The position numbers and the translations under genes are program-made. A stretch of 64,000 bases of DNA from Phaeodactylibacter luteus. Its GTDB lineage: Bacteria > Bacteroidota > Bacteroidia > Chitinophagales > Saprospiraceae. Of the stretch, positions 4,697 through 60,106 are shown one piece after another. Under the pieces are notes generated by a model. It made no database searches, was not told where the DNA came from, and saw only the letters and a list, made by a program, of their open reading frames with translations. The DNA is taken from contig NZ_VOOR01000023.1 of NCBI RefSeq assembly GCF_007993045.1, positions 1 through 64,000 of the forward strand, written 5' to 3'. The first letter of the stretch is position 1, and each line of letters opens with the position of its first letter.

Positions 4697-4914
4697 ACAG
4701 GCAAAAACCAGATTGCCGCTTTTTCCCCTGCATAATGTGAGGGGGCCTGCCCCTGCCAAACGGCAGGTGCCGCTATGCTACGGGGCTCGCTGCCCGCTCG
4801 GCCCCTCGCCCTACAGGCGTCGGGTCTGGCCTTCGGCCACCCCTGCGCAGCGCTAGGCCAATGCCAGCCTAGAGCTCAAAAAGCATAAACGCCTGCGGTA
4901 TTTCAGTTTACGCA
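4697..4914 (+). repeat. Intergenic repeat family 1, copy A
   Basis: This copy lies between the divergent DUF4349 and pcm genes. It carries the family hallmarks: a GC-rich hairpin (GGGGCCTGCCCCTGCC...GGCAGGTGCCGCT), the core GGGGCTCGCTGCCCGCTCGG, then CGCAGCGCTAGGCCAATGCC and a right arm AAGCATAAACGCCTGCGGTA. The left arm (AAACCAGATTGCCG) matches the longest copy at 59852-60106. Confidence 0.8.
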
Positions 4915-8361: not shown

Positions 8362-8404
8362 GAGAAGGGGCTTCCGGCAATTCGCCAGAAGCCCCTTCTC
8401 TTTT
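8362..8404 (+). terminator. Rho-independent terminator after guaB
   Basis: A perfect 13-bp stem (GAGAAGGGGCTTC / GAAGCCCCTTCTC, 8362-8374 and 8388-8400) with a 13-base loop is followed by TTTT. Confidence 0.85.
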
Positions 8405-8417
8405 AGGTATATGGTTT

Positions 8418-8506
8418 AGAGCGTGTTGGAACTTTAGTAATCGGTCTGTCCCGCTAAGCTAGCGGGACACTTTTTCGACTAGAAGACCAAAGTCCCAACA
8501 CGCTCT
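8418..8506 (-). mobile_element. MITE-like element, short form (family 3)
   Basis: An 89-bp element with terminal inverted repeats AGAGCGTGTTGGAACTTT / AAAGTCCCAACACGCTCT. TTA is present at both ends (TTA-GAG...CTC-TTA). Inside is a perfect palindrome GTCCCGCTA/TAGCGGGAC (8448-8467). The reverse complement matches the 172-bp element at 34741-34912 except for an internal stretch of about 85 bp missing here. It lies between the converging ends of guaB and the T9SS cargo gene. Confidence 0.75.
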
Positions 8507-8526
8507 TAGAGATCAGGAAACCCTGA

Positions 8527-11001
8527 TTATTTCGTCACCACAACGCGCTTGGTCATTTCTCCCTGGCCAGCTTGTACGCGCACCATGTACACACCACTGC
8601 CGTAGGCGGAGAAGTCCAGCTGCTGCTGCACTTTTGCCGTCTGCCCAAGGTGGATCTGCCGGAGCTCTCGGCCTGCTACATCCGTGATGGTCAGGATGAT
8701 TTCAGAAGCCTCTTCCAGCTGCAGAGAGAAATCTACTGCTCCAGAAGTAGGGTTAGGCCCGAGGTAGTAAGCCGATAAGCCTTCAATCTCGGTTACGCTT
8801 ACCATAACCTGAATAGTGCCCGTAACCGTACAGCCATTAGCATCGGTAACGGTGACCGTGTACTCGCCATCCTCCAGGTCGGTAGCCATAGGGGTCGTTT
8901 GCCCGTCAGACCACTCGTAAGTGTAAGGAGGCACTCCGCCGCTGACCGTTACGGTAGCAGTACCATTGCCAGCTACCAGCTCGTCGATAATTGGCGCTGT
9001 GCCGAAATTGACGATAAGGGAGTCTGCAGAAACCTCGCAGATATTGGCGAAAGCCTGCCCACCTGCCGTGTTGGCCGTGACCGCAGCCTTGATGACCCAT
9101 GTCCCTTGGAATGGAGGGAAGTTGTTGGCACTGAGCAGACCGTTGAGGTCTGCATCGTATTCTGAATTAGGGTCTGCGCCAGTAAGGATAAAGGTGCCAC
9201 CGAGCGCGCCGGTGCCGCCAAGGTCACTGTAAAATACCCAGCCAAAGCTGCCGGCAGCAGGCACCTCTGAGGTTTCACCTGCCTCAAGGATAAAGGTTTC
9301 TTCCTCGCTACATACAGCCACTTCGCCAGTGCTGAGCATTGGAGCAACAGAGCAGGCCTCTTCTTCGCACATCGTAGTACCGTCAACGCAGGTCAGTGCA
9401 GGGAAGCCATTGCCTACCCCGGTGTTCTCTCCACCGCCACAAGCGCCAGCTTCATTGATGACAATCAGGTAAGTACCTTCCACATCAGCAGTCCAAGTAA
9501 TAGAGCATCCGTCTCCATCGCCAGCGCCAAAGGCAACTACCTCCCCGTTGGGGTTGATAATAGTAAACTCAGGTACCCAGGTACCTGCGCCAGGGCCATT
9601 GCACATGCTGAATGTATAAGTGCCGCCAGCTTGGAAGTTGTCCACGCTGTAAGCTTCAGAAGCGAATACTTCAAAAGTCGTAATCTCGTTGAACGGGCAG
9701 CCGGTGCCGTCGTCGCAAGGCGCTCCTCCAAAAGTAGAGTTGAAGTCGGTCCAGCCCGTAGTATCAGTAGGAGCGACCCAGTCCAGGCAAGGCTCCATAG
9801 GCATGCCGCCAATTTCGATAGTACCTTCTGTAGCACAGCCATTATCATCTGTAATGGTAACGGTGTACACACCCTCCATCAGGCCAGTAGCGGTTGCCGT
9901 AGTCTGGCCATCAGACCAAGTGTAGGCGTAAGGCTCTACGCCGCCGCTTGCAAATGCCGTCACGGTGCCGTCCATATTGTCTACCAGCGAATCGATGCCT
10001 ACCGCATCAGTGATGAAGTTGACAATGATAGAGTCTTCAGATACGGAACAGATAGAGCCAGATGGGCTCGCTGCGTTTTCGTAGACCACTGCACGGATAA
10101 CCCATAAGCCTCCCAGATCAGGCAGGTTATTGGCCGCGAGGATACCGTTTAGGCCAGCATCATAGGAAGCCGGAGTGCTTGCGCCAGTGAGGTTGAATAC
10201 GCCAGGGATGCCACCTGTGCCGCCCAATACATCAGAAAACTGCCAGCCGAAGCCGCCAGTGCCAGGGATGACATCCATCCCGTCAGTAGCCAGGTCGACA
10301 CTTTCGCCCGGGCATACTGCCACTTCTCCGGTAGTCGTCAGGACACCCGCCGCGCAGGTCACTACGTCGCCAATGCCCAGCTCGCCAGATACAACGCTGC
10401 AGCCTGTTGCATCAGTAACCGTCACGGTGTAGATGCCTTCTTCCAAGCCAGTAGCGGTGGCAGTTGTCTGCCCATCAGACCAAACGTAGGAATAGGGCTC
10501 AGTGCCAGCATCTGCAACTACAGTCGCAGACCCGTCGCCATTGTCTGTCAAAGACACAATGAAAGGAGTGAACTCCACGACGAGTGAATCCATTGTGGTC
10601 GCACAGATGGTGCTAGATGCGCTGCCTGCGTCAGAATAGACCACCGCCTTGATGGTCCACACCCCGCTGAACGGAGGGAAATTGTTGGCACTAAGTATGC
10701 CGTTCAAGTCTGCATCATAGTTGGCAGTGATGCTTGCGCCTGTAAGGGTGAAAGTCCCGCCCAACGCGCCGCTCCCGGTAGTGCCAGGGATGAAACGGTA
10801 GCCAAAGCCTCCCCCTTCAGGAATGACATTGGCATCTTCTACGCCGATATCAAAAGAGGAAACACCGGTATCGTCACAGCTAAGCGTGACCACCCCGGTA
10901 TTCTGAAGTGCGCCGACAGCGCAATCCTGTGCATGGGCTAAAGGTGTGCCCAGCAGCCAGACGGCTGCGAAAAGCAATAATCGGTAATGTTTTGCAATCA
11001 T
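8527..11001 (-). CDS. T9SS cargo protein with SprB-type repeats and type A sorting domain
   Basis: An 824-residue secreted protein. It begins with a signal peptide (LLLFAAVWLLGTPLAHAQ). It then has three copies of a module of about 110 residues (start CAVGAL / CAAGVL / CSVAPM, internal GGFGYRF- or GSFGWVF-like motif, YDADLNG, FPPFxGxWxIKAV). Each module is followed by a SprB-type repeat (PYTYEWSDGQTT...GEYTVTVTDANGC). A different beta-rich domain lies between modules two and three. The C-terminus (about 80 residues from YYLGPNPTSG, with GVYMVRV and a basic end) is a T9SS type A sorting domain, which directs export across the outer membrane and surface attachment. The role is probably adhesion or surface structure; no catalytic motif is seen. 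It is monocistronic. Confidence 0.88.
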   Translation of the reverse strand: MIAKHYRLLLFAAVWLLGTPLAHAQDCAVGALQNTGVVTLSCDDTGVSSFDIGVEDANVIPEGGGFGYRFIPGTTGSGALGGTFTLTGASITANYDADLNGILSANNFPPFSGVWTIKAVVYSDAGSASSTICATTMDSLVVEFTPFIVSLTDNGDGSATVVADAGTEPYSYVWSDGQTTATATGLEEGIYTVTVTDATGCSVVSGELGIGDVVTCAAGVLTTTGEVAVCPGESVDLATDGMDVIPGTGGFGWQFSDVLGGTGGIPGVFNLTGASTPASYDAGLNGILAANNLPDLGGLWVIRAVVYENAASPSGSICSVSEDSIIVNFITDAVGIDSLVDNMDGTVTAFASGGVEPYAYTWSDGQTTATATGLMEGVYTVTITDDNGCATEGTIEIGGMPMEPCLDWVAPTDTTGWTDFNSTFGGAPCDDGTGCPFNEITTFEVFASEAYSVDNFQAGGTYTFSMCNGPGAGTWVPEFTIINPNGEVVAFGAGDGDGCSITWTADVEGTYLIVINEAGACGGGENTGVGNGFPALTCVDGTTMCEEEACSVAPMLSTGEVAVCSEEETFILEAGETSEVPAAGSFGWVFYSDLGGTGALGGTFILTGADPNSEYDADLNGLLSANNFPPFQGTWVIKAAVTANTAGGQAFANICEVSADSLIVNFGTAPIIDELVAGNGTATVTVSGGVPPYTYEWSDGQTTPMATDLEDGEYTVTVTDANGCTVTGTIQVMVSVTEIEGLSAYYLGPNPTSGAVDFSLQLEEASEIILTITDVAGRELRQIHLGQTAKVQQQLDFSAYGSGVYMVRVQAGQGEMTKRVVVTK

Positions 11002-17218: not shown

Positions 17219-17432
17219 TGGGCGTAAACCCAAATACCGCAGGCGTTTAAGCTTTTCGGGCTTTAGGCTGGCAATCGGCCTAGCGCTGCGAAGGGGTGGG
17301 AAGCCCGATAGGGCCGAGCGGATAGCGAGCCCCGCAGCATAGCGGCACCTGCCCGCTGGCAGGGGCAGGCCCCCCATCCTTACGGCAGGGGCAGGGCCAT
17401 CACGCGAAGCAAGCTAGGCAGGCCCCATCCTT
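17219..17432 (-). repeat. Intergenic repeat family 1, copy B
   Basis: This is the inverse orientation relative to copy A. It holds the right arm (TACCGCAGGCGTTTAAGCTT), the core GGCCTAGCGCTGCGAAGGGG, GGGCCGAGCGGATAGCGAGC, the CACCTGCCCGCTGGCAGGGGC hairpin region (17347-17367) and a long left arm including CACGCGAAGCAAGC, as in the copy at 59852. It lies between converging genes. Confidence 0.8.
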
Positions 17433-21233: not shown

Positions 21234-21305
21234 TAGCCCGTACGGGATTCGAACCCGTGCTACCAGAATGAAAATCTGGCGTCCTAACCCCTAGACGAAC
21301 GGGCC
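21234..21305 (-). tRNA. tRNA-Glu (anticodon TTC), distal copy
   Basis: A 72-base cloverleaf on the minus strand. The acceptor stem GGCCCGT pairs with ACGGGCT (one G-U pair), the discriminator is A, the anticodon stem is CCAGA/TCTGG with loop TTTTCAT (anticodon TTC), and the T-arm contains GGTTCGAATCC. CCA is not encoded. The sequence is identical to the copy at 21339-21410. Confidence 0.96.
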
Positions 21306-21310
21306 GGGGT

Positions 21311-21430
21311 TTAAATATTAGTGTGCAGTGGTTTGTAGTAGCCCGTACGGGATTCGAACCCGTGCTACCAGAATGAAAATCTGGCGTCCTAACCCCTAGA
21401 CGAACGGGCCATGTGCACTCTAATATTTAA
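21311..21430 (-). repeat. Inverted repeat flanking the proximal tRNA-Glu gene
   Basis: TTAAATATTAGTGTGCA (21311-21327) and TGCACTCTAATATTTAA (21414-21430) are inverted copies with 16 of 17 positions pairing. They bracket the tRNA at 21339-21410, so in the transcript the leader could pair with the spacer between the two tRNAs. Confidence 0.75.
21339..21410 (-). tRNA. tRNA-Glu (anticodon TTC), proximal copy
   Basis: Identical in all 72 bases to the tRNA at 21234-21305, with the same cloverleaf and TTC anticodon. It is transcribed first, from the promoter at 21438-21467, with a 33-base spacer before the second copy. Confidence 0.96.
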
Positions 21431-30364: not shown

Positions 30365-30545
30365 CTTAATACCGGGCACAGCCCAAAATGTCGCAAGCTT
30401 TAGCACGGCCATGGCATCGGCCTAGCGCTGCGGAGGGGCGGCAGGCCTGATAAGGCCGAGCGAAGAGCGAGCCCCGCAGCATAGCGGCACCTGCCGTCGG
30501 GCAGGGGCAGGCCCCTATCCTTGCGGAGGGGGCAAGCCCCACAAA
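30365..30545 (-). repeat. Intergenic repeat family 1, copy D
   Basis: It contains AAAATGTCGCAAGC, GGCCTAGCGCTGCGGAGGGG, GGCCGAGCGAAGAGCGAGCC and the CACCTGCCGTCGGGCAGGGG hairpin region. It lies between the coiled-coil protein gene and leuS, which diverge. Confidence 0.8.
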
Positions 30546-35607: not shown

Positions 35608-35810
35608 GATTGGGTAATATTTAGTAGTCAGTATGTCGGTGTATAGAGCAGCTTCCCCTCCCGAATCCACAGGGGCTAGCGTTAAAGCGAAGTTAAGAAA
35701 GCCGGTAGTGGTAGAACTCCGTTTAAAGGCAAAAAATTATTTAGCCCTCCAGTTTTCTAACGGATAGCGCCAAAGCCCACCAGCCCCCCTTTTTTTGGCT
35801 TCCCATTGGA

Positions 35811-35998
35811 GCCTGCCCCTGCCGCAAGGAGGGCTGTAAAGTTTGGGGCTCCCCCTGCCCAGCGGCAGGGGGCGCTATGCTGCGGGGCTCGCTGTCCGCT
35901 CGGCCCTAACGGGCTTCCCACCCCTCCGCAGCGCTAGCCCGATGCCATCCTGTGGCCAATACAACCTGAATGGCTGCAACATCTGGGTTTCCGCTCCT
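35811..35998 (+). repeat. Intergenic repeat family 1, copy E
   Basis: It contains GCCTGCCCCTGCCGCAAGGA, a second hairpin CCCCCTGCCCAGCGGCAGGGGG, GGGGCTCGCTGTCCGCTCGG and CCGCAGCGCTAGCCCGATGCC with a diverged right arm. It lies between divergent genes. Confidence 0.78.
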
Positions 35999-41114: not shown

Positions 41115-41265
41115 CTTACTGCAGGCTTTCGGCTGGAATTGGCCTAGCGCTGCGAAGGGGTGTAAGCCCGATAGGGCCGAGCGGGCAGCGAGCCCCGGAG
41201 CATAGCGGCACCTGCCTTCAGGCAGGGGCAGGCCCCTATCCTTGCGGCGGGGGCTGTATGAACAC
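41115..41265 (-). repeat. Intergenic repeat family 1, copy F
   Basis: It holds GGCCTAGCGCTGCGAAGGGG, GGGCCGAGCGGGCAGCGAGC, and CACCTGCCTTCAGGCAGGGG followed by CCCCTATCCTTGCGG. The left arm diverges. Confidence 0.78.
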
Positions 41266-47936: not shown

Positions 47937-48452
47937 TTACCGGCGGCTAGCTATAAAGGCCAGCGCCAGTGCGAGTAAAAAATATCCGATCAGGCTGCGG
48001 GCGTAAGTCAGCAGGGTATTCGGCAGCGTCACCCTCAGGCTCTCTTCGTTCAGAGAAGCAGAAAAGGCTTCATACTGCTCTTCCGACAGCATCGCCTTGC
48101 GGGCTTCCAAGACTTCCCGCATCACTTCAGCCTGTACATCTGCAAGGCCAGGGTCAGCCAAGCCATGAAGCACAAAATAATATACATAATACAGCAAGCT
48201 GCTCACCACCAATACCGCAAAGCCGGCCCGTATGCCCTCTTTAAGGTCCAGCTTGCCCCCCTCCTGCGCTTGCCGCTCATCTTCCACCGCTTTCCAGGCT
48301 GCCGCAACATACAAGCCGACCGTCGCCCAGTGCAGGAAGGAATTGAAAACCCATTCCTTGTTGATCAGGTAAGCCACAAAATAAATCGCCACGACGGCCA
48401 GGCCTGCAATGAGGCCATACCGGACACTACGGTTTTGTAAAAGCTTGCCCAT
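47937..48452 (-). CDS. DUF4199 membrane protein
   Basis: A 171-residue inner-membrane protein with about four hydrophobic segments (YGLIAGLAVVAIYFVAYLI; a second at 40-55; FAVLVVSSLLYYVYYFVL; and a C-terminal one LIGYFLLALALAFIA). The middle loop has the AEVMREVLEA / MLSEEQYEAF charged pattern typical of DUF4199. The function is unknown. It lies between the GT2 gene and a second DUF4199 gene on the same strand. Confidence 0.85.
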   Translation of the reverse strand: MGKLLQNRSVRYGLIAGLAVVAIYFVAYLINKEWVFNSFLHWATVGLYVAAAWKAVEDERQAQEGGKLDLKEGIRAGFAVLVVSSLLYYVYYFVLHGLADPGLADVQAEVMREVLEARKAMLSEEQYEAFSASLNEESLRVTLPNTLLTYARSLIGYFLLALALAFIASRR

Positions 48453-48514
48453 GCTGATTTTGTTTTCTGGCTGCCCTGCCCTTCAAAAGCTTTTGGCAAC
48501 CGCTAGTTGATGAT

Positions 48515-48552
48515 AAAAAAGCCTGCTCCGTAGAAGTTCCCCCGGAGCAGGC
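48515..48552 (-). terminator. Terminator between the two DUF4199 genes
   Basis: On the minus strand GCCTGCTCCG / CGGAGCAGGC form a 10-bp stem followed by six T's. It follows the 48610 gene, so that gene may be partly separated from the DUF4199-GT2 pair. Confidence 0.7.
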
Positions 48553-48609
48553 CTGCCAATAGTCAATGCTCAAGCCAGGCACTGCTTCAGGCCCGGCCAA
48601 AGATAAAAA

Positions 48610-49176
48610 TTATCGCTCGCGCTTGAGGAACGGAGCAATGATAAGCGAAAAAATCACGCCCACAACCAGCGCGCCCCCGCCGCCAAACACCGCAAATGCT
48701 GCCGGGCTGAACATAAAGCTCATCATCTCCATCGCATTGTCGGCATCGCTTGCGCTCATGCCCTGCTGCTCTATCATCTGATCGCGGCTGACCTCAAGCA
48801 GAGTATCCATAAGCCCCGGCTCAATGAAGGCAAAGAAGACATAGCTCCAGATCGCCGAGACGATCGCAATCATCAGCGCTGCAATAAAACCGGTATAGAA
48901 CGATCGCCCGAACGTGATGAAACCGCCAAGCTCGTGGTCACGATGCTGCCGGATGGCCAGCACCATAGCGGCGATCATCACCGTCCAGGTCGCCAGATTG
49001 GAGACCCAGCTAGAGCTCGACTGCGGGTCGGAGTAATCTACTGCGCCAGTGAGGTGGATGACCAAAGAGATCACGACCAGCACCAATCCGCCAAGCAGCC
49101 CGTGGCGAGTGGCTGTTGGCCAGGGCGAAACCGATTCAGGCGCTACATTTTCATTCGGGTTGTCAAAAGTACTCAT
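48610..49176 (-). CDS. DUF4199 membrane protein, second copy
   Basis: A 188-residue membrane protein with the same layout as its neighbour at 47937: a polar N-terminus, four hydrophobic segments (HGLLGGLVLVVISLVIHL; LATWTVMIAAMVLAI; FYTGFIAALMIAIVSAIWSYVFF; and a Gly-rich VFGGGGALVVGVIFSLIIA at the C-terminus) and a charged loop with RDQMIEQQGMSASDAD. It is probably a duplicated DUF4199 protein of unknown function. Confidence 0.85.
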   Translation of the reverse strand: MSTFDNPNENVAPESVSPWPTATRHGLLGGLVLVVISLVIHLTGAVDYSDPQSSSSWVSNLATWTVMIAAMVLAIRQHRDHELGGFITFGRSFYTGFIAALMIAIVSAIWSYVFFAFIEPGLMDTLLEVSRDQMIEQQGMSASDADNAMEMMSFMFSPAAFAVFGGGGALVVGVIFSLIIAPFLKRER

Positions 49177-49345
49177 GGCTGATTTTTTTTGTTTTGTTTA
49201 TAAAATCGGGGGGACGCCCCAAAATACCCTACTAACCTACAGTATTTTCCAACAACGCGCCAAGGATTCCGGCAAAGCCTGTACTTTGTTAGACCAACAG
49301 GAATGCAAAATGGCTTGAACACCGCTGCGATTGCGGATTGTTTTG
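49177..49345. other. Intergenic region
   Basis: Upstream of the minus-strand DUF4199 gene; no coding frame is seen. It leads into a family 1 repeat and a MITE-like element. Confidence 0.4.
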
Positions 49346-49476
49346 GGGCCTGCCCCCTCCGCAAGGATAGGGGCCTCCTCCTGCCTGACGGCACGAGGCG
49401 CTACGCTACGGGGCTCGCTGTCCGCTCGGCCCTATCGGGCTTACACCCCTCCGCATCGCTAGGCCAGTGCCAACTT
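49346..49476 (+). repeat. Intergenic repeat family 1, copy G
   Basis: It contains GGGGCCTGCCCCCTCCGCAA, GGGGCTCGCTGTCCGCTCGG and CCGCATCGCTAGGCCAGTGCC. It abuts a MITE-like element directly (49477). Confidence 0.78.
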
Positions 49477-49632
49477 AGAGATGTTGGGATTTTGCTTTTG
49501 GAGCGAACGCAGCCAAATTTTGCCCTGATCGACCGACCTGCCCGCCGTAAGACTTTGGCAGGCGGAAGAACAACGGAGAGCAGGAGAAAATTTGGCAAGA
49601 GCAGCCCGAAGTGCAAAATCCCAAAAAGCTCT
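49477..49632 (+). mobile_element. MITE-like element, diverged (family 3)
   Basis: A 156-bp element with inverted ends AGAGATGTTGGGATTTTGC and GCAAAATCCCAAAAAGCTCT, again with TTA at both sides. The interior differs from the other two and contains nested inverted repeats (AGCCAAATTTTGCC... and AGAAAATTTGGC). It is flanked on its left by a family 1 repeat. Confidence 0.55.
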
Positions 49633-49833: not shown

Positions 49834-51108
49834 ATGCGCCGCCTCGCTCAAATCCTTTTTTGGTCTGTCATCTCTGCCGCATTCATAGGCCCCGGCACAG
49901 TCACCACCGCGGCCAAAGCCGGCAGTGCTTTTGGCACCGCCCTGTTGTGGGCACTGCTTTTTTCCGTGGGCGCTACTTACCTGCTGCAAGAGACCGCAGC
50001 CAGGGTAGTCATTGGCAGTGGGCAACAGCCCGGGCAATTGATCGGCGGCGGCCATCGGAAGCGCCTGGCCTATGGGCTCTTCTACGCAGTTGCATTTGGC
50101 TGTGCAGCCTACCAGGCTGGGAATGTCATGGGAGCGGTAGCGGGCCTGCAGCTCAGTGCCCCTGTCCCCGGTTATGTGCTCAGCTTAGGCATAAGCGCCC
50201 TGTCTGCCACACTGCTGTGGGGCGGGAGCTTCAAAGTGATCACCCGGGGGCTGAGCACCCTCGTAGCCGTTATGGGCTTTCTATTCTGTTGGGCAGCTTG
50301 GCAGGTGCGCCCCTCGCCCGGGCTTCTAGGCAGCGGCTTGAGCCCCAGCTTGCCCAGCGGCAGCCTGCTGCTCACCATCAGCCTGATCGGCACTACGGTA
50401 GTGCCCTACAACCTCTTCCTTGGGGCTGGCCTCAGCCGGGGCAGGGAGCTCAAAGCTACAAGATGGGGCCTGGGCGGGGCAATTGCCCTGGGCGGGCTGA
50501 TATCAGCAGCCATACTCATCACCGGAACGCAAGTCAGCGAGGGGTTTAGTTTTGAAGGGCTGGCAGCAGCGCTGCAAAGAGAGCTCGGCCCTTGGGGAAA
50601 GCCCGCTTTGGCCGTGGGGCTCGGGGCAGCGGGCATCAGTTCTGCCATCACAGCCCCGCTGGCAGCAGCTGTGGCAGGGCAGAGCCTGATCGGGCAGGAA
50701 CACGGGCATTGGGGCACTCAAGGCCGCTATTTCCGGCTCACTTGGGGGGCGGTCCTTGGCATTGGGCTCTTGTTCAGCCTCTCTGGCATACAGCCCGTGC
50801 CAGCCATCATCATGGCACAGGCCATCAATGGGCTCCTCCTCCCCTTGGCAGCAGGCTTCCTCATTTATGTGGCCAACGATAGCGCAGCCCTTGGCCGAAA
50901 CGCCAATGGCCCACTGGCCAACTTCTTGTCCCTCCTGGTATTTGGCGTATGCGTTTTCCTTGGGCTGAACAACCTGGCCGCAGCCCTCTCCAAAGCCATT
51001 GGGCTGAGCGGGGGCGCACTGCGCTCTCCTGCGTGGCTGGGCCTGCTCAGCGCAGCCGCTTGCCTGCTGATGGCCCGCTGGGCTTTCGCCAAAAGGGCAC
51101 AGCCTTGA
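49834..51108 (+). CDS. Divergent Nramp-like transporter lacking canonical metal ligands
   Basis: A 424-residue polytopic membrane protein (about 11 hydrophobic segments) with the fold signs of the Nramp/SLC11 family: a broken helix 1 around GPGTVTTAAKAGSAFG (residues 19-34), helix 6 with GTTVVPYNLFLGAG (187-199), and the usual segment pattern. Canonical Nramps have DPGN in helix 1 and MPHN in helix 6, which bind the divalent metal. Here they are GPGT and VPYN, so Asp, Asn, Met and His are all replaced. It is probably a transporter of other cations or a different substrate; annotation as a manganese/iron transporter would be unsafe. It is alone on the plus strand, convergent with the dihydroorotase-like gene. 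Confidence 0.8.
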   Translation: MRRLAQILFWSVISAAFIGPGTVTTAAKAGSAFGTALLWALLFSVGATYLLQETAARVVIGSGQQPGQLIGGGHRKRLAYGLFYAVAFGCAAYQAGNVMGAVAGLQLSAPVPGYVLSLGISALSATLLWGGSFKVITRGLSTLVAVMGFLFCWAAWQVRPSPGLLGSGLSPSLPSGSLLLTISLIGTTVVPYNLFLGAGLSRGRELKATRWGLGGAIALGGLISAAILITGTQVSEGFSFEGLAAALQRELGPWGKPALAVGLGAAGISSAITAPLAAAVAGQSLIGQEHGHWGTQGRYFRLTWGAVLGIGLLFSLSGIQPVPAIIMAQAINGLLLPLAAGFLIYVANDSAALGRNANGPLANFLSLLVFGVCVFLGLNNLAAALSKAIGLSGGALRSPAWLGLLSAAACLLMARWAFAKRAQP

Positions 51109-51137: not shown

Positions 51138-52412
51138 CTAAGCCAGCGCAGAGAAAAACTGGTTGTTGTTGATGACGCCCAACGGGCGGCCCTTCAACCG
51201 CTGGCCAAGCACAGGGGAGTTCAGCGAGCGGGAACGGACACGGCCGCGCTCATATACCCACTCCATATCTGGATGGAAAATGGTCAGCTCCGCAGGCTGG
51301 CCTACGGCTATGTGAGGTACCGGAAGGCCAAAAAGCTTGCGAGGGTTGTAAGCCAGCGCCTGCACCAGGGTTTCCGCATCTAGCCAATCCGACAAGTAGG
51401 TCCTGCTCAGGGCGTATAAGGTCTCCAGCCCGGTCACCCCAAAATCTGCATAGCTGAACTCCAGCTTTTTCACTTCCTCTTCCAGCGGCACATGATGAGC
51501 CGAGATGATGTCAATGGTGCCATCCTTTACGCCCGCTAAAAGAGCAGCCCGGTCTTCGGCCCTGCGCAGGGGCGGCATGACTTTGAAGTTGCTGTCAAAA
51601 TCTGCTACAGCCGTTTCGTCGTACACCAAGTTCATGATACTGACAGAAGCCGTTACCTGCAAGCCCCTGCTTTTGGCCTCCCGCACCATTTGTACCGCAC
51701 CTGCCGTGGAAAGGTTCGCGAGATGGAGGCGGCTTTCGGCGTACTCCAGGAGGTGCAGATCCCGGCGCACCATAATCTCTTCAGCGATAGCAGGCACCCC
51801 GGCCAGCCCCATAGCTGTCGATACCCGCCCCTCGTGCACCTGCCCGCCGTGGCTGACCAGCTTATCCAGTGGCTGATTGATGACCAGCCCGCCGAAGGCC
51901 TTGACGTACTCTAGGGCACGGAGCATGACGCCGGCATGCTGCAAAGGCTTTTCCCCATCCGAAAAGGCGACCGCCCCGGCGCGCTGCATATCGATCATCT
52001 CCGTGATATCCAGCCCTTTACAGCCTTGAGTAATGGCCCCGATCGGCAGAAACTGCACCAGCTTGCCATACGCGTTCTTGCTGATGTACTGCACACCAGA
52101 TTTATCGTCAATAACAGGTTGGGTATTGGGCAGGGCTGCCACTGCGGTGAAGCCGCCTGCTGCCGCTGCTGCGCCTGCGGTGTGTAGGGTTTCCCGGTGC
52201 TCCAGCCCGGGGTCTCCAACCTGTGCTCCAATATCTACCCAGCCAATAGAGGCGCATTGCCCCTTATAGGACAGCTCCTCCAAGCCCGGCGCGGAGGGGA
52301 GGTTCTCCCCTATTGCTGCGATATAGCCATCTCGGATCAAAAGGTCTTTTTCCTCCCCGTGCAGGTCTTCCCCCGGGGCCACAATGTGTGCGTTTCTTAT
52401 CAGTAGGTCCAT
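51138..52412 (-). CDS. Dihydroorotase-like protein lacking the HxH zinc motif
   Basis: A 424-residue amidohydrolase of the dihydroorotase family (pyrimidine pathway: ring closure of carbamoyl aspartate). The fold motifs are recognisable: start LLIRNAHIVAPGEDLHGEEKD-type (split here), GWVDIGAQVGDPG, AALPNTQPVID, NPRKLFGL. The metal site is altered: in active enzymes the sequence is DxHxHxR, while here Asp60 is followed by G62, Q64 and G66. The later HxxD-type segment reads NQPLD, and the catalytic TDHxPH segment reads SAHHVPL. Many Bacteroidota have such a second, zinc-poor PyrC-like protein; it may be a regulatory or structural partner of aspartate carbamoyltransferase. I therefore do not assign pyrC. 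GT2/DUF4199 genes are often its neighbours. Confidence 0.82.
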   Translation of the reverse strand: MDLLIRNAHIVAPGEDLHGEEKDLLIRDGYIAAIGENLPSAPGLEELSYKGQCASIGWVDIGAQVGDPGLEHRETLHTAGAAAAAGGFTAVAALPNTQPVIDDKSGVQYISKNAYGKLVQFLPIGAITQGCKGLDITEMIDMQRAGAVAFSDGEKPLQHAGVMLRALEYVKAFGGLVINQPLDKLVSHGGQVHEGRVSTAMGLAGVPAIAEEIMVRRDLHLLEYAESRLHLANLSTAGAVQMVREAKSRGLQVTASVSIMNLVYDETAVADFDSNFKVMPPLRRAEDRAALLAGVKDGTIDIISAHHVPLEEEVKKLEFSYADFGVTGLETLYALSRTYLSDWLDAETLVQALAYNPRKLFGLPVPHIAVGQPAELTIFHPDMEWVYERGRVRSRSLNSPVLGQRLKGRPLGVINNNQFFSALA

Positions 52413-58539: not shown

Positions 58540-58705
58540 CAGCAACCCGAATGCCCGGTGCTTTGGGGCACTAGCCTGGCAGCGGCCTAGCGCTGCGAAG
58601 GGGGGGCCGAAGGCCAGACCCGACGCCTGTAGGGCGAGGGGCCGAGCGGACAGCGAGCCCCGCAGCATAGCGGCACCTGCCCTCAGGCAGGGGCAGGCCC
58701 CCTCA
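58540..58705 (-). repeat. Intergenic repeat family 1, copy H
   Basis: It contains GCGGCCTAGCGCTGCGAAGG, GGCCGAAGGCCAGACCCGAC (as in copies A and I), GGGCCGAGCGGACAGCGAGC and CACCTGCCCTCAGGCAGGGG. It lies upstream of the WYL regulator. Confidence 0.8.
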
Positions 58706-59851: not shown

Positions 59852-60106
59852 CACAAACCAGATCGCCGTTTTTTGCCTGCCCAGCCTGCTTCGCGTGATG
59901 GGCTTGCCCCCTGCCGCAAGGATGGGGCCTGCACCTGCCTGCAGGCAGGTGCCGCTATGCTACGGGGCTCGCTCTTCGCTCGGCCCCTCGCCCTACAGGC
60001 GTCGGGTCTGGCCTTCGGCCCCCCCTTCGCAGCGCTAGGCCAATGCCAAGCTATAGCCCGAAGGGCATATACTCTTGCGGCATTTTGGTTCACGCCCGAT
60101 TTTAGC
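59852..60106 (+). repeat. Intergenic repeat family 1, copy I (longest)
   Basis: About 255 bp, from AAACCAGATCGCCGTTTTTT through CTTCGCGTGATGGGC, GGGGCTCGCTCTTCGCTCGG and GGTCTGGCCTTCGGCC to the right arm GCATATACTCTTGCGGCATT. It is the best reference copy for the family. It sits between the WYL regulator and cas6. Confidence 0.82.

Follow-up and report, generated by a model that had tools for sequence, protein, structure and literature searches.

The locus and the predicted fold of its product

The window, i.e. the whole stretch of 64,000 nucleotides analysed here, contains on its plus strand an open reading frame (49834-51108) that starts with ATG, has no internal stops and specifies a product of 424 amino acids. 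The features considered are the following.

49834..51108, plus strand: Nramp-fold (LeuT-fold) transporter of the GPGT clade, 424 aa (open reading frame, Pfam, AlphaFold2 model, solved-structure matches)
49888..49899, plus strand: TM1 break, GPGT (residues 19-22) replacing DPGN (alignment columns; model residues 16-19 unwound)
50122..50124, plus strand: Asn97 of TM3, replacing a conserved Glu (E134 of DraNramp; alignment columns)
50392..50412, plus strand: TM6 break, TTVVPYN (residues 187-193) replacing A-T-V-M-P-H-N (alignment; model residues 189-190 unwound)
51138..52412, minus strand: convergent dihydroorotase-like neighbour, context only (TIGR00857 pyrC_multi, 293.9 bits, cut-off 279.05)

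The Pfam Nramp model PF01566 matched the protein with 180.2 bits (cut-off 29.8), and all three NCBIfam MntH/nramp models that matched did so below their cut-offs (95.3 against 430, 62.9 against 272.5 and, for Nramp_1, 47.7 against 50 bits). An AlphaFold2 model computed from a 24-row alignment (pLDDT 85.3, pTM 0.88) is unwound at the two breaks listed above, and its top matches among solved structures were DraNramp (6c3i, Z 48.0), BfraNramp (10ky, Z 46.3) and EleNRMT (Z 43.6-43.9). Based on the Pfam score, the modelled helix breaks and these best matches, the predicted fold is that of Nramp. Canonical Nramp/MntH proteins (DraNramp and the clade B BfraNramp) share this fold at 22-23% identity, as does the magnesium transporter EleNRMT (PDB 7qia; Z 43.6, rmsd 2.7 over 380 residues); the APC-type transporters ApcT and AdiC share the LeuT fold, but at 10-14% identity and with a far weaker match (Z 27-28). 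As the fold is common to metal and amino-acid carriers, the structure search is silent on substrate. The structure prediction that a preliminary description of this gene, made from the sequence alone, had proposed as a check delivered the Nramp fold with its TM1 and TM6 breaks.

The surroundings of the gene were also inspected. The dihydroorotase-like neighbour was rejected as a functional partner, being found in one of 207 other loci (L235; E <= 1e-10). Two adjacent genes for DUF4199 membrane proteins lie upstream of the carrier (47937-49176, minus strand). Eight places in the window (49341-49480 and approximately 4742-4874, 17261-17398, 30412-30544, 35806-35947, 41134-41254, 58639-58701 and 59900-59986) hold copies of an interspersed repeat, 63-142 bp long and 72-88% identical, in both orientations; five more copies lie on two other stretches of the genome (L123, L146), which together amount to 36 kb. 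Two tRNA genes of equal Rfam score lie 33 bp apart at 21234-21305 and 21339-21410 (minus strand).

Binding-site residues and family placement

Metal-transporting Nramps are described by the signature DxxN in TM1 and A/CxxM in TM6, and the NRMTs by DxxG-TxxA/T (PMC8806188). The window protein reads GxxT-TxxV; it lacks the NRMT signature as well as the canonical DxxN, A/CxxM-PH and TM3 Glu, i.e. the metal- and proton-site residues of DraNramp and BfraNramp, and two of its changes, TM6 His to Tyr192 and TM3 Glu to Asn97, lie outside the four signature positions. In a 191-row alignment that includes DraNramp and BfraNramp, G19, T22, T187, V190 and Y192 are aligned to the D, N, A, M and H of the DPGN-type rows. 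At the columns of interest, the nine DPGN-type rows (seven genomic plus DraNramp and BfraNramp) have D, N, E, A, M and H, and the four NRMT-type rows D, G, E, T, A and W.

These substitutions are characteristic of a clade. Relatives were picked by similarity (more than 130 bits to P0001 or to a member of group 2, as defined below), which gave 163 loci, 80 of them from a scan that had these motifs among its seed patterns, and 161 aligned rows, with four proteins present twice. Within these 161 rows, G19, T187 and Y192 occur in all; position 22 is Thr in 157 and Ser in four, position 97 is Asn in 159 and Asp in two, and position 190 is Val in 158 and Ile in three. Because the site residues hardly vary in 161 relatives, we conclude that the GPGT proteins are a real subfamily. 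The preliminary description, which had read GPGT/VPYN in place of DPGN/MPHN in an Nramp-fold protein, is thus borne out by the alignment, the Pfam match and this near-invariance. Its statement that all four metal-binding side chains are replaced needs a correction: all four positions have changed, but strictly they comprise three side-chain ligands plus the Ala position, which contributes a backbone carbonyl and no side-chain ligand.

A degenerate or broken gene was ruled out by the intact reading frame and the almost invariant alternative site. Likewise, an erroneous alignment of GPG with the upstream GPAF of MntH was ruled out for the GPGT clade, in which GPGT is spaced from AGxxFG exactly as DPGN is; in YcsG and MumT this spacing is four residues longer, so that the alignment of GPG is less certain there. 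No position in TM1, TM6, TM8 or TM10 is acidic in more than 30% of the clade's rows. Acidic residues do occur elsewhere: at E53 in TM2, at TM3 position 94 (Glu in 121 of the 161 rows and Gln in 38, the window protein having Gln) and, where the helix following TM6 begins, at positions 208 and 212. Two Bacillota carriers with GPGT, from Domibacillus (L236, L245), have Asp rather than Asn at TM3 position 97, and no oxoprolinase is present on their stretches.

A tree of 86 of the 191 rows, inferred by a quick method with SH-aLRT support and with long branches flagged, places all 62 GPGT rows in one set (support 96), with the window protein inside group 1, a set of 30 rows (99). The preliminary description had suggested a phylogeny with Nramp-related magnesium transporters, and in this tree the NRMT-type rows stand apart from the GPGT clade, they and the DPGN-type rows each forming a set of their own (100 each). 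The YcsG/MumT-type rows, which carry GPGF, sit on a long branch away from GPGT in the free tree, and a joint clade is not rejected (AU p 0.58); none of the 63 genomes with a GPGT carrier was hit in a search for YcsG-type genes at 1e-40. The clade is large, with at least 592 relatives in one scan.

Relatives of this kind have been noticed before. A 2026 preprint sorts Nramp-related proteins into groups, places MntG (YcsG) in 'G-motif 3' and terms the groups other than the NRMT-like one and G-motif 3 'entirely uncharacterized' (PMC12873925); the GPGT clade would be one of these. The Nramp outgroup has been seen as a possible link from carriers of non-metal substrates to metal carriers (PMC4072509), and a conserved TM3 Glu has been described in a sampled outgroup (PMC9606685), a residue that the GPGT clade lacks. 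A literature search, mostly without subscription papers, found no paper giving the GPGT clade a substrate or linking it to OplAH/HyuAB; that PxpT and YcsG are likely 5-oxoproline carriers is, in contrast, already known.

YcsG (MntG) of Bacillus subtilis and PxpT of Corynebacterium glutamicum resemble the GPGT clade in being Nramp-related partners of a pxpABC operon. As judged on a YcsG-type protein of Bacillus badius and a MumT-type protein, the YcsG type shares the GPG of TM1 and the Asn of TM3 with the clade and differs in having GPGF and GGTVGGY instead of GPGT and GTTVVPY. MumT of Acinetobacter baumannii, so named here by its match to the described mum operon since the record is unannotated at that point, likewise has GPG and the TM3 Asn and adjoins a PxpA-type gene; it differs from the clade by its YcsG-type GPGF motif and is reported to import manganese. 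EleNRMT shares the TM6 Thr at the Ala position with the window protein and differs by its retained TM1 Asp and TM3 Glu (DAGG...E).

One subgroup within the GPGT proteins has TVVTY or TVVAY, i.e. Thr or Ala for the TM6 Pro (L108, L110, L111, L113-L118). Genes of the 2-oxoacid:ferredoxin oxidoreductase type occur on the stretch at six of its loci, and its genomes hold unlinked split HyuAB (eight) or pxpA elsewhere (G183); its substrate may differ from that of the other GPGT carriers.

Linkage and co-occurrence with 5-oxoprolinases

Reading frames around 59 loci were clustered without prior choice. Besides the carrier, each of PxpA, PxpB and PxpC was found at 24 loci, spread over 14 genera, and proteins of the HyuA/HyuB type at 14 loci, from six genera. 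Inspection by eye of the 40 clusters listed for these loci, judged on their first 110 residues, showed no recurrent MntR/DtxR/Fur-type regulator; a regulator of the Rrf2 type and potassium uptake proteins of the Trk type were each present in four loci of a single family, the Trk-type genes, recognised by eye, lying near the carrier at L102, L104, L106 and L109. Neighbours were named by NCBIfam and Pfam on single representatives: PxpA and PxpB scored above the NCBIfam 5-oxoprolinase cut-offs, and PxpC above that of the 5-oxoprolinase/urea amidolyase domain and below that of PxpC_5OPro. A neighbour of approximately 1260 amino acids is Hydantoinase A plus B/oxoprolinase by Pfam and reached no NCBIfam cut-off for HyuAB; the best solved match of this fused enzyme is named N-methylhydantoinase, and the next one 5-oxoprolinase.

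For the linkage counts, carriers were located by tblastn and loci were assigned to group 1 or 2 by their best tblastn query, so that haloarchaeal, Domibacillus and TVVTY rows count as group 2 though set apart in the tree. Across 57 loci from 57 of the 63 GPGT genomes, OplAH/HyuAB lay on the stretch at 13 of 19 group-1 loci, and pxp genes (24) or OplAH (one) at 25 of 38 group-2 loci; in 32 of the 57, the enzyme was encoded within 300 bp of the carrier on the same strand. The enzyme was linked in one of nine group-1 and seven of 12 group-2 loci among 21 further loci of the window's family, and in 32 of 70 group-1 and eight of 10 group-2 loci among 80 named ones, the 38 named group-1 loci without a linked enzyme including some cut by contig ends. 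Plasmid records with a carrier match numbered 25, and three of the five examined had a linked enzyme. By comparison, neither pxp nor OplAH/HyuAB genes were found beside other Nramp-family proteins (0 of 17 loci).

The named loci with OplAH/HyuAB include Bacteroidota, Latescibacterota, Acidobacteriota, Aminicenantes, Caldithrix, Chlorobiota, Myxococcota and one haloarchaeon. Where a distance was given, the hit edges of carrier and enzyme were 6-121 bp apart on the same strand in 11 of 13 loci; in a Gemmatimonadetes locus the enzyme is approximately 3 kb from the carrier. On plasmids of Haloarcula, Haloferax and Halocatena, the genes for the carrier, HyuA and HyuB follow one another in that order, and the annotation calls the carrier a divalent metal transporter. 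A gene for a ribbon-helix-helix (CopG-type) regulator lies directly upstream of haloarchaeal operons (L164 7262-7807, L165 7237-7782, L171 7337-7882).

The two enzyme types can be exchanged beside closely related carriers. Three loci share one genus code (g70); in two of them (L091, L095) pxpABC lies directly downstream of the carrier, while in the third (L090) a fused OplAH, 646 bp away on the opposite strand, stands in for pxpABC. The carriers of L090 and L091 share 75% identity. 5-Oxoproline is the substrate common to the pxpABC and OplAH enzyme types, and for this reason the swap at L090 favours 5-oxoproline.

The window gene itself, unlike those of YcsG/PxpT and of many group-2 relatives, is not beside pxpABC, nor beside any other oxoprolinase gene. 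The window's genome has an unlinked pxpABC cluster on another contig (C124; L123, ORFs 8404-10710), of which PxpA (240.7 against 226 bits) and PxpB (190.3 against 145.6) exceed the NCBIfam cut-offs and PxpC does not (172.6 against 500 and 189.2 against 230.2); no OplAH match was found in this genome. It also yielded no MntH-type match at 1e-40, its only other Nramp-family match being a protein with GAGD in TM1 (L002 1411-2649, G000:C179). As this protein reaches 166 bits against a cut-off of 50, the NCBI model Nramp_1 covers proteins without DPGN.

Co-occurrence was scored in 296 genomes drawn at phylum level, which are not phylogenetically independent, with GPGT carriers called at E <= 4.5e-42. 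The carrier was present in 63 genomes, pxpA in 57 and OplAH/HyuAB in at least 45. All 63 carrier genomes had pxpA (41) or OplAH/HyuAB (22) and none had both, as against at least 38 of 233 genomes without the carrier that had either enzyme (Fisher 4.5e-38, kinship uncorrected), a lower bound because at most two OplAH/HyuAB candidates were scored per genome. Of the 22, 14 have an enzyme that is fused or adjacent to the carrier, and eight have only unlinked split HyuAB, whose substrate is unsure. The association also holds within families. In 44 genomes of the window's family, Saprospiraceae, pxpA or a fused OplAH was present in 26 of 27 with the carrier versus four of 17 without (p 5.6e-7), one genome being the sole exception (G316; carrier present, neither enzyme), and a 255-bit HyuAB-type match in a carrier-free genome (G333) was left out of the fused OplAH count. 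In a second family (f5), an enzyme accompanied all nine carriers versus two among the 19 listed genomes without one (p 8e-6). Conversely, 27 of 101 enzyme-bearing genomes had neither a GPGT nor a YcsG-type carrier.

Other carriers are found in place of the GPGT protein. YcsG-type genes occurred in 11 of the 296 genomes and in no GPGT genome, and all 11 had pxpA (10) or, in G190, OplAH without pxpA. Among the 16 genomes with pxpA and without a GPGT call, the pxpA stretch carried a YcsG-type gene in nine and an MFS permease inside the cluster in two; one had a GPGT piece near a contig end, and in four no such carrier was seen beside pxp (G275 has a YcsG-type gene elsewhere). The GPGT piece (G128, L265) is a fragment beside pxpA with one in-frame stop, approximately 130 bases from the contig end, and was left out of the GPGT-positive count. 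Pfam confirmed both MFS permeases and two of the YcsG-type proteins. Judging from the carriers found at the pxpA loci of these 16 genomes, a single slot seems to be occupied alternately by GPGT, YcsG and MFS carriers. The MFS permeases, encoded between pxpC and pxpA (L258 6635-7876, L267 7435-8679), are candidates for a third kind of 5-oxoproline carrier.

Probable substrate and biological meaning

We infer that the window protein is a metal-free secondary carrier of the Nramp fold that most likely, with a probability of roughly 0.73, imports 5-oxoproline or a very similar small lactam acid. Once the carrier had taken up 5-oxoproline (pyroglutamate), the ring would be opened to glutamate by an ATP-dependent intracellular 5-oxoprolinase: PxpABC in the window's genome, OplAH/HyuAB in many close relatives. 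In APC-type amino-acid transporters, a glycine-rich TM1 break binds the substrate carboxylate; by analogy, the Gly-Pro-Gly-Thr break could offer backbone NH groups and hydroxyls to the carboxylate of 5-oxoproline. The lactam side may be lined by Thr187, Thr188 and Tyr192 of TM6, Asn97 of TM3 and Gln329 and Asn332 of TM10, all nearly or fully invariant, and in some members of the clade TM3 position 94 may be involved in proton coupling. In support of uptake, C. glutamicum PxpT is required for growth on 5-oxoproline and B. subtilis YcsG is reported to be so (PMC13274462). The expectation of the preliminary description that the substrate has changed, or that no metal is carried at all, is supported on three counts: the missing metal ligands, the tree, and the genomic association with two oxoprolinase types that are unrelated to each other.

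The clade might instead import manganese, or iron, through another site, with the tie to nitrogen enzymes being indirect, as has been argued for YcsG/MntG and MumT; we regard this as improbable. When overproduced, YcsG (renamed MntG) raises cell manganese, and MntR binds to the pxp promoter, the authors of that work cautioning that a polar effect may have caused the 5-oxoproline phenotype (PMC10448178); deletion of mumT lowers cell manganese (PMC5050338). Both types share GPG and the TM3 Asn with the GPGT clade, and an NRMT relative without an M-box rescued manganese transport (PMC4072509). Furthermore, MntH-type genes occurred in three of 63 GPGT genomes versus 105 of 233 others (p 1.2e-10), and the window's genome gave no MntH-type match, so GPGT carriers could be replacing MntH as manganese importer. 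Against this, MntH-type genes are present in nine of the 11 YcsG genomes, which fits poorly with replacement in the case of YcsG, and the carrier and MntH coexist in those three genomes and, within Saprospiraceae, in three of five with a DPGN-type MntH, compared with 24 of the other 39 that have the carrier; lineage and habitat may explain the anti-correlation. The dearth of acidic positions in TM1, TM6, TM8 and TM10 of the clade, the lack of a recurrent MntR/DtxR/Fur-type regulator by eye and the ability of MFS permeases to fill the slot also speak against manganese, as does the abolition of manganese transport by D56G in DraNramp (PMC13060092). Our literature search, mostly without subscription papers, found no report of manganese or iron transport by the GPGT clade, although its relatives YcsG/MntG and MumT are reported manganese importers.

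Comparably improbable is that the carrier serves another small cyclic amide, such as hydantoin, N-methylhydantoin or a dihydropyrimidine-type compound, with 5-oxoproline being one of its substrates or none. HyuAB-type enzymes act on several lactams and imides, and models of caprolactamase and acetophenone carboxylase match the fused enzyme below their cut-offs; since the best solved match of that enzyme is named N-methylhydantoinase, a hydantoin-like compound is, next to manganese, the most serious competing substrate. However, group 2 is tied to pxpABC, whose products NCBIfam models name as 5-oxoprolinase subunits, and the two enzyme types share a single carrier clade, the swap at L090 being one instance. 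The magnesium option raised by the preliminary description fares much worse: Thr187 of TM6 is common to the clade and the NRMTs and the selective Met is absent, but the TM1 Asp and the TM3 Glu are retained in all four NRMT-type rows, which make up a separate set in the tree (100), and we reject this reading on TM1, TM3 and the tree. No M-box was found at the Rfam gathering score in the window or in the loci of eight relatives, a motif present in only some NRMTs (PMC4072509). Least probable of all is an exporter or overflow valve for 5-oxoproline; direction cannot be read from genomic association, but the enzymes encoded in the same operons use up 5-oxoproline within the cell, and growth on 5-oxoproline supplied from outside depends on the related PxpT (PMC13274462).

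If import of 5-oxoproline is the function, a large cross-domain Nramp branch, spanning many bacterial phyla and haloarchaea, would have given up metals to become a dedicated carrier for pyroglutamate salvage, able to partner either of two unrelated 5-oxoprolinases and exchanged elsewhere for YcsG/PxpT or MFS permeases, the reported manganese roles of YcsG and MumT then being indirect; for this wider picture we consider the odds to be even. Metal transport would then be just one trade of the Nramp fold family, which would become a testable case of the interconversion of a metal site and an organic-acid site on one fold. Relatives are publicly annotated as 'divalent metal (cation) transporter', a name that would be wrong for hundreds of genes, and a different branch, together with a second type of enzyme, would bring independent evidence to the dispute over whether YcsG and MumT handle manganese or 5-oxoproline.

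An N-terminal pyroglutamate is reported for the majority of exported proteins of Bacteroidetes (PMC10653852), and breakdown of these proteins would free 5-oxoproline outside the cytoplasm. We suggest that the carrier in Bacteroidota recycles the pyroglutamate of exported proteins (Q-rule); pyroglutamate salvage would thereby gain its uptake step in a phylum where this residue stands first in most exported proteins.
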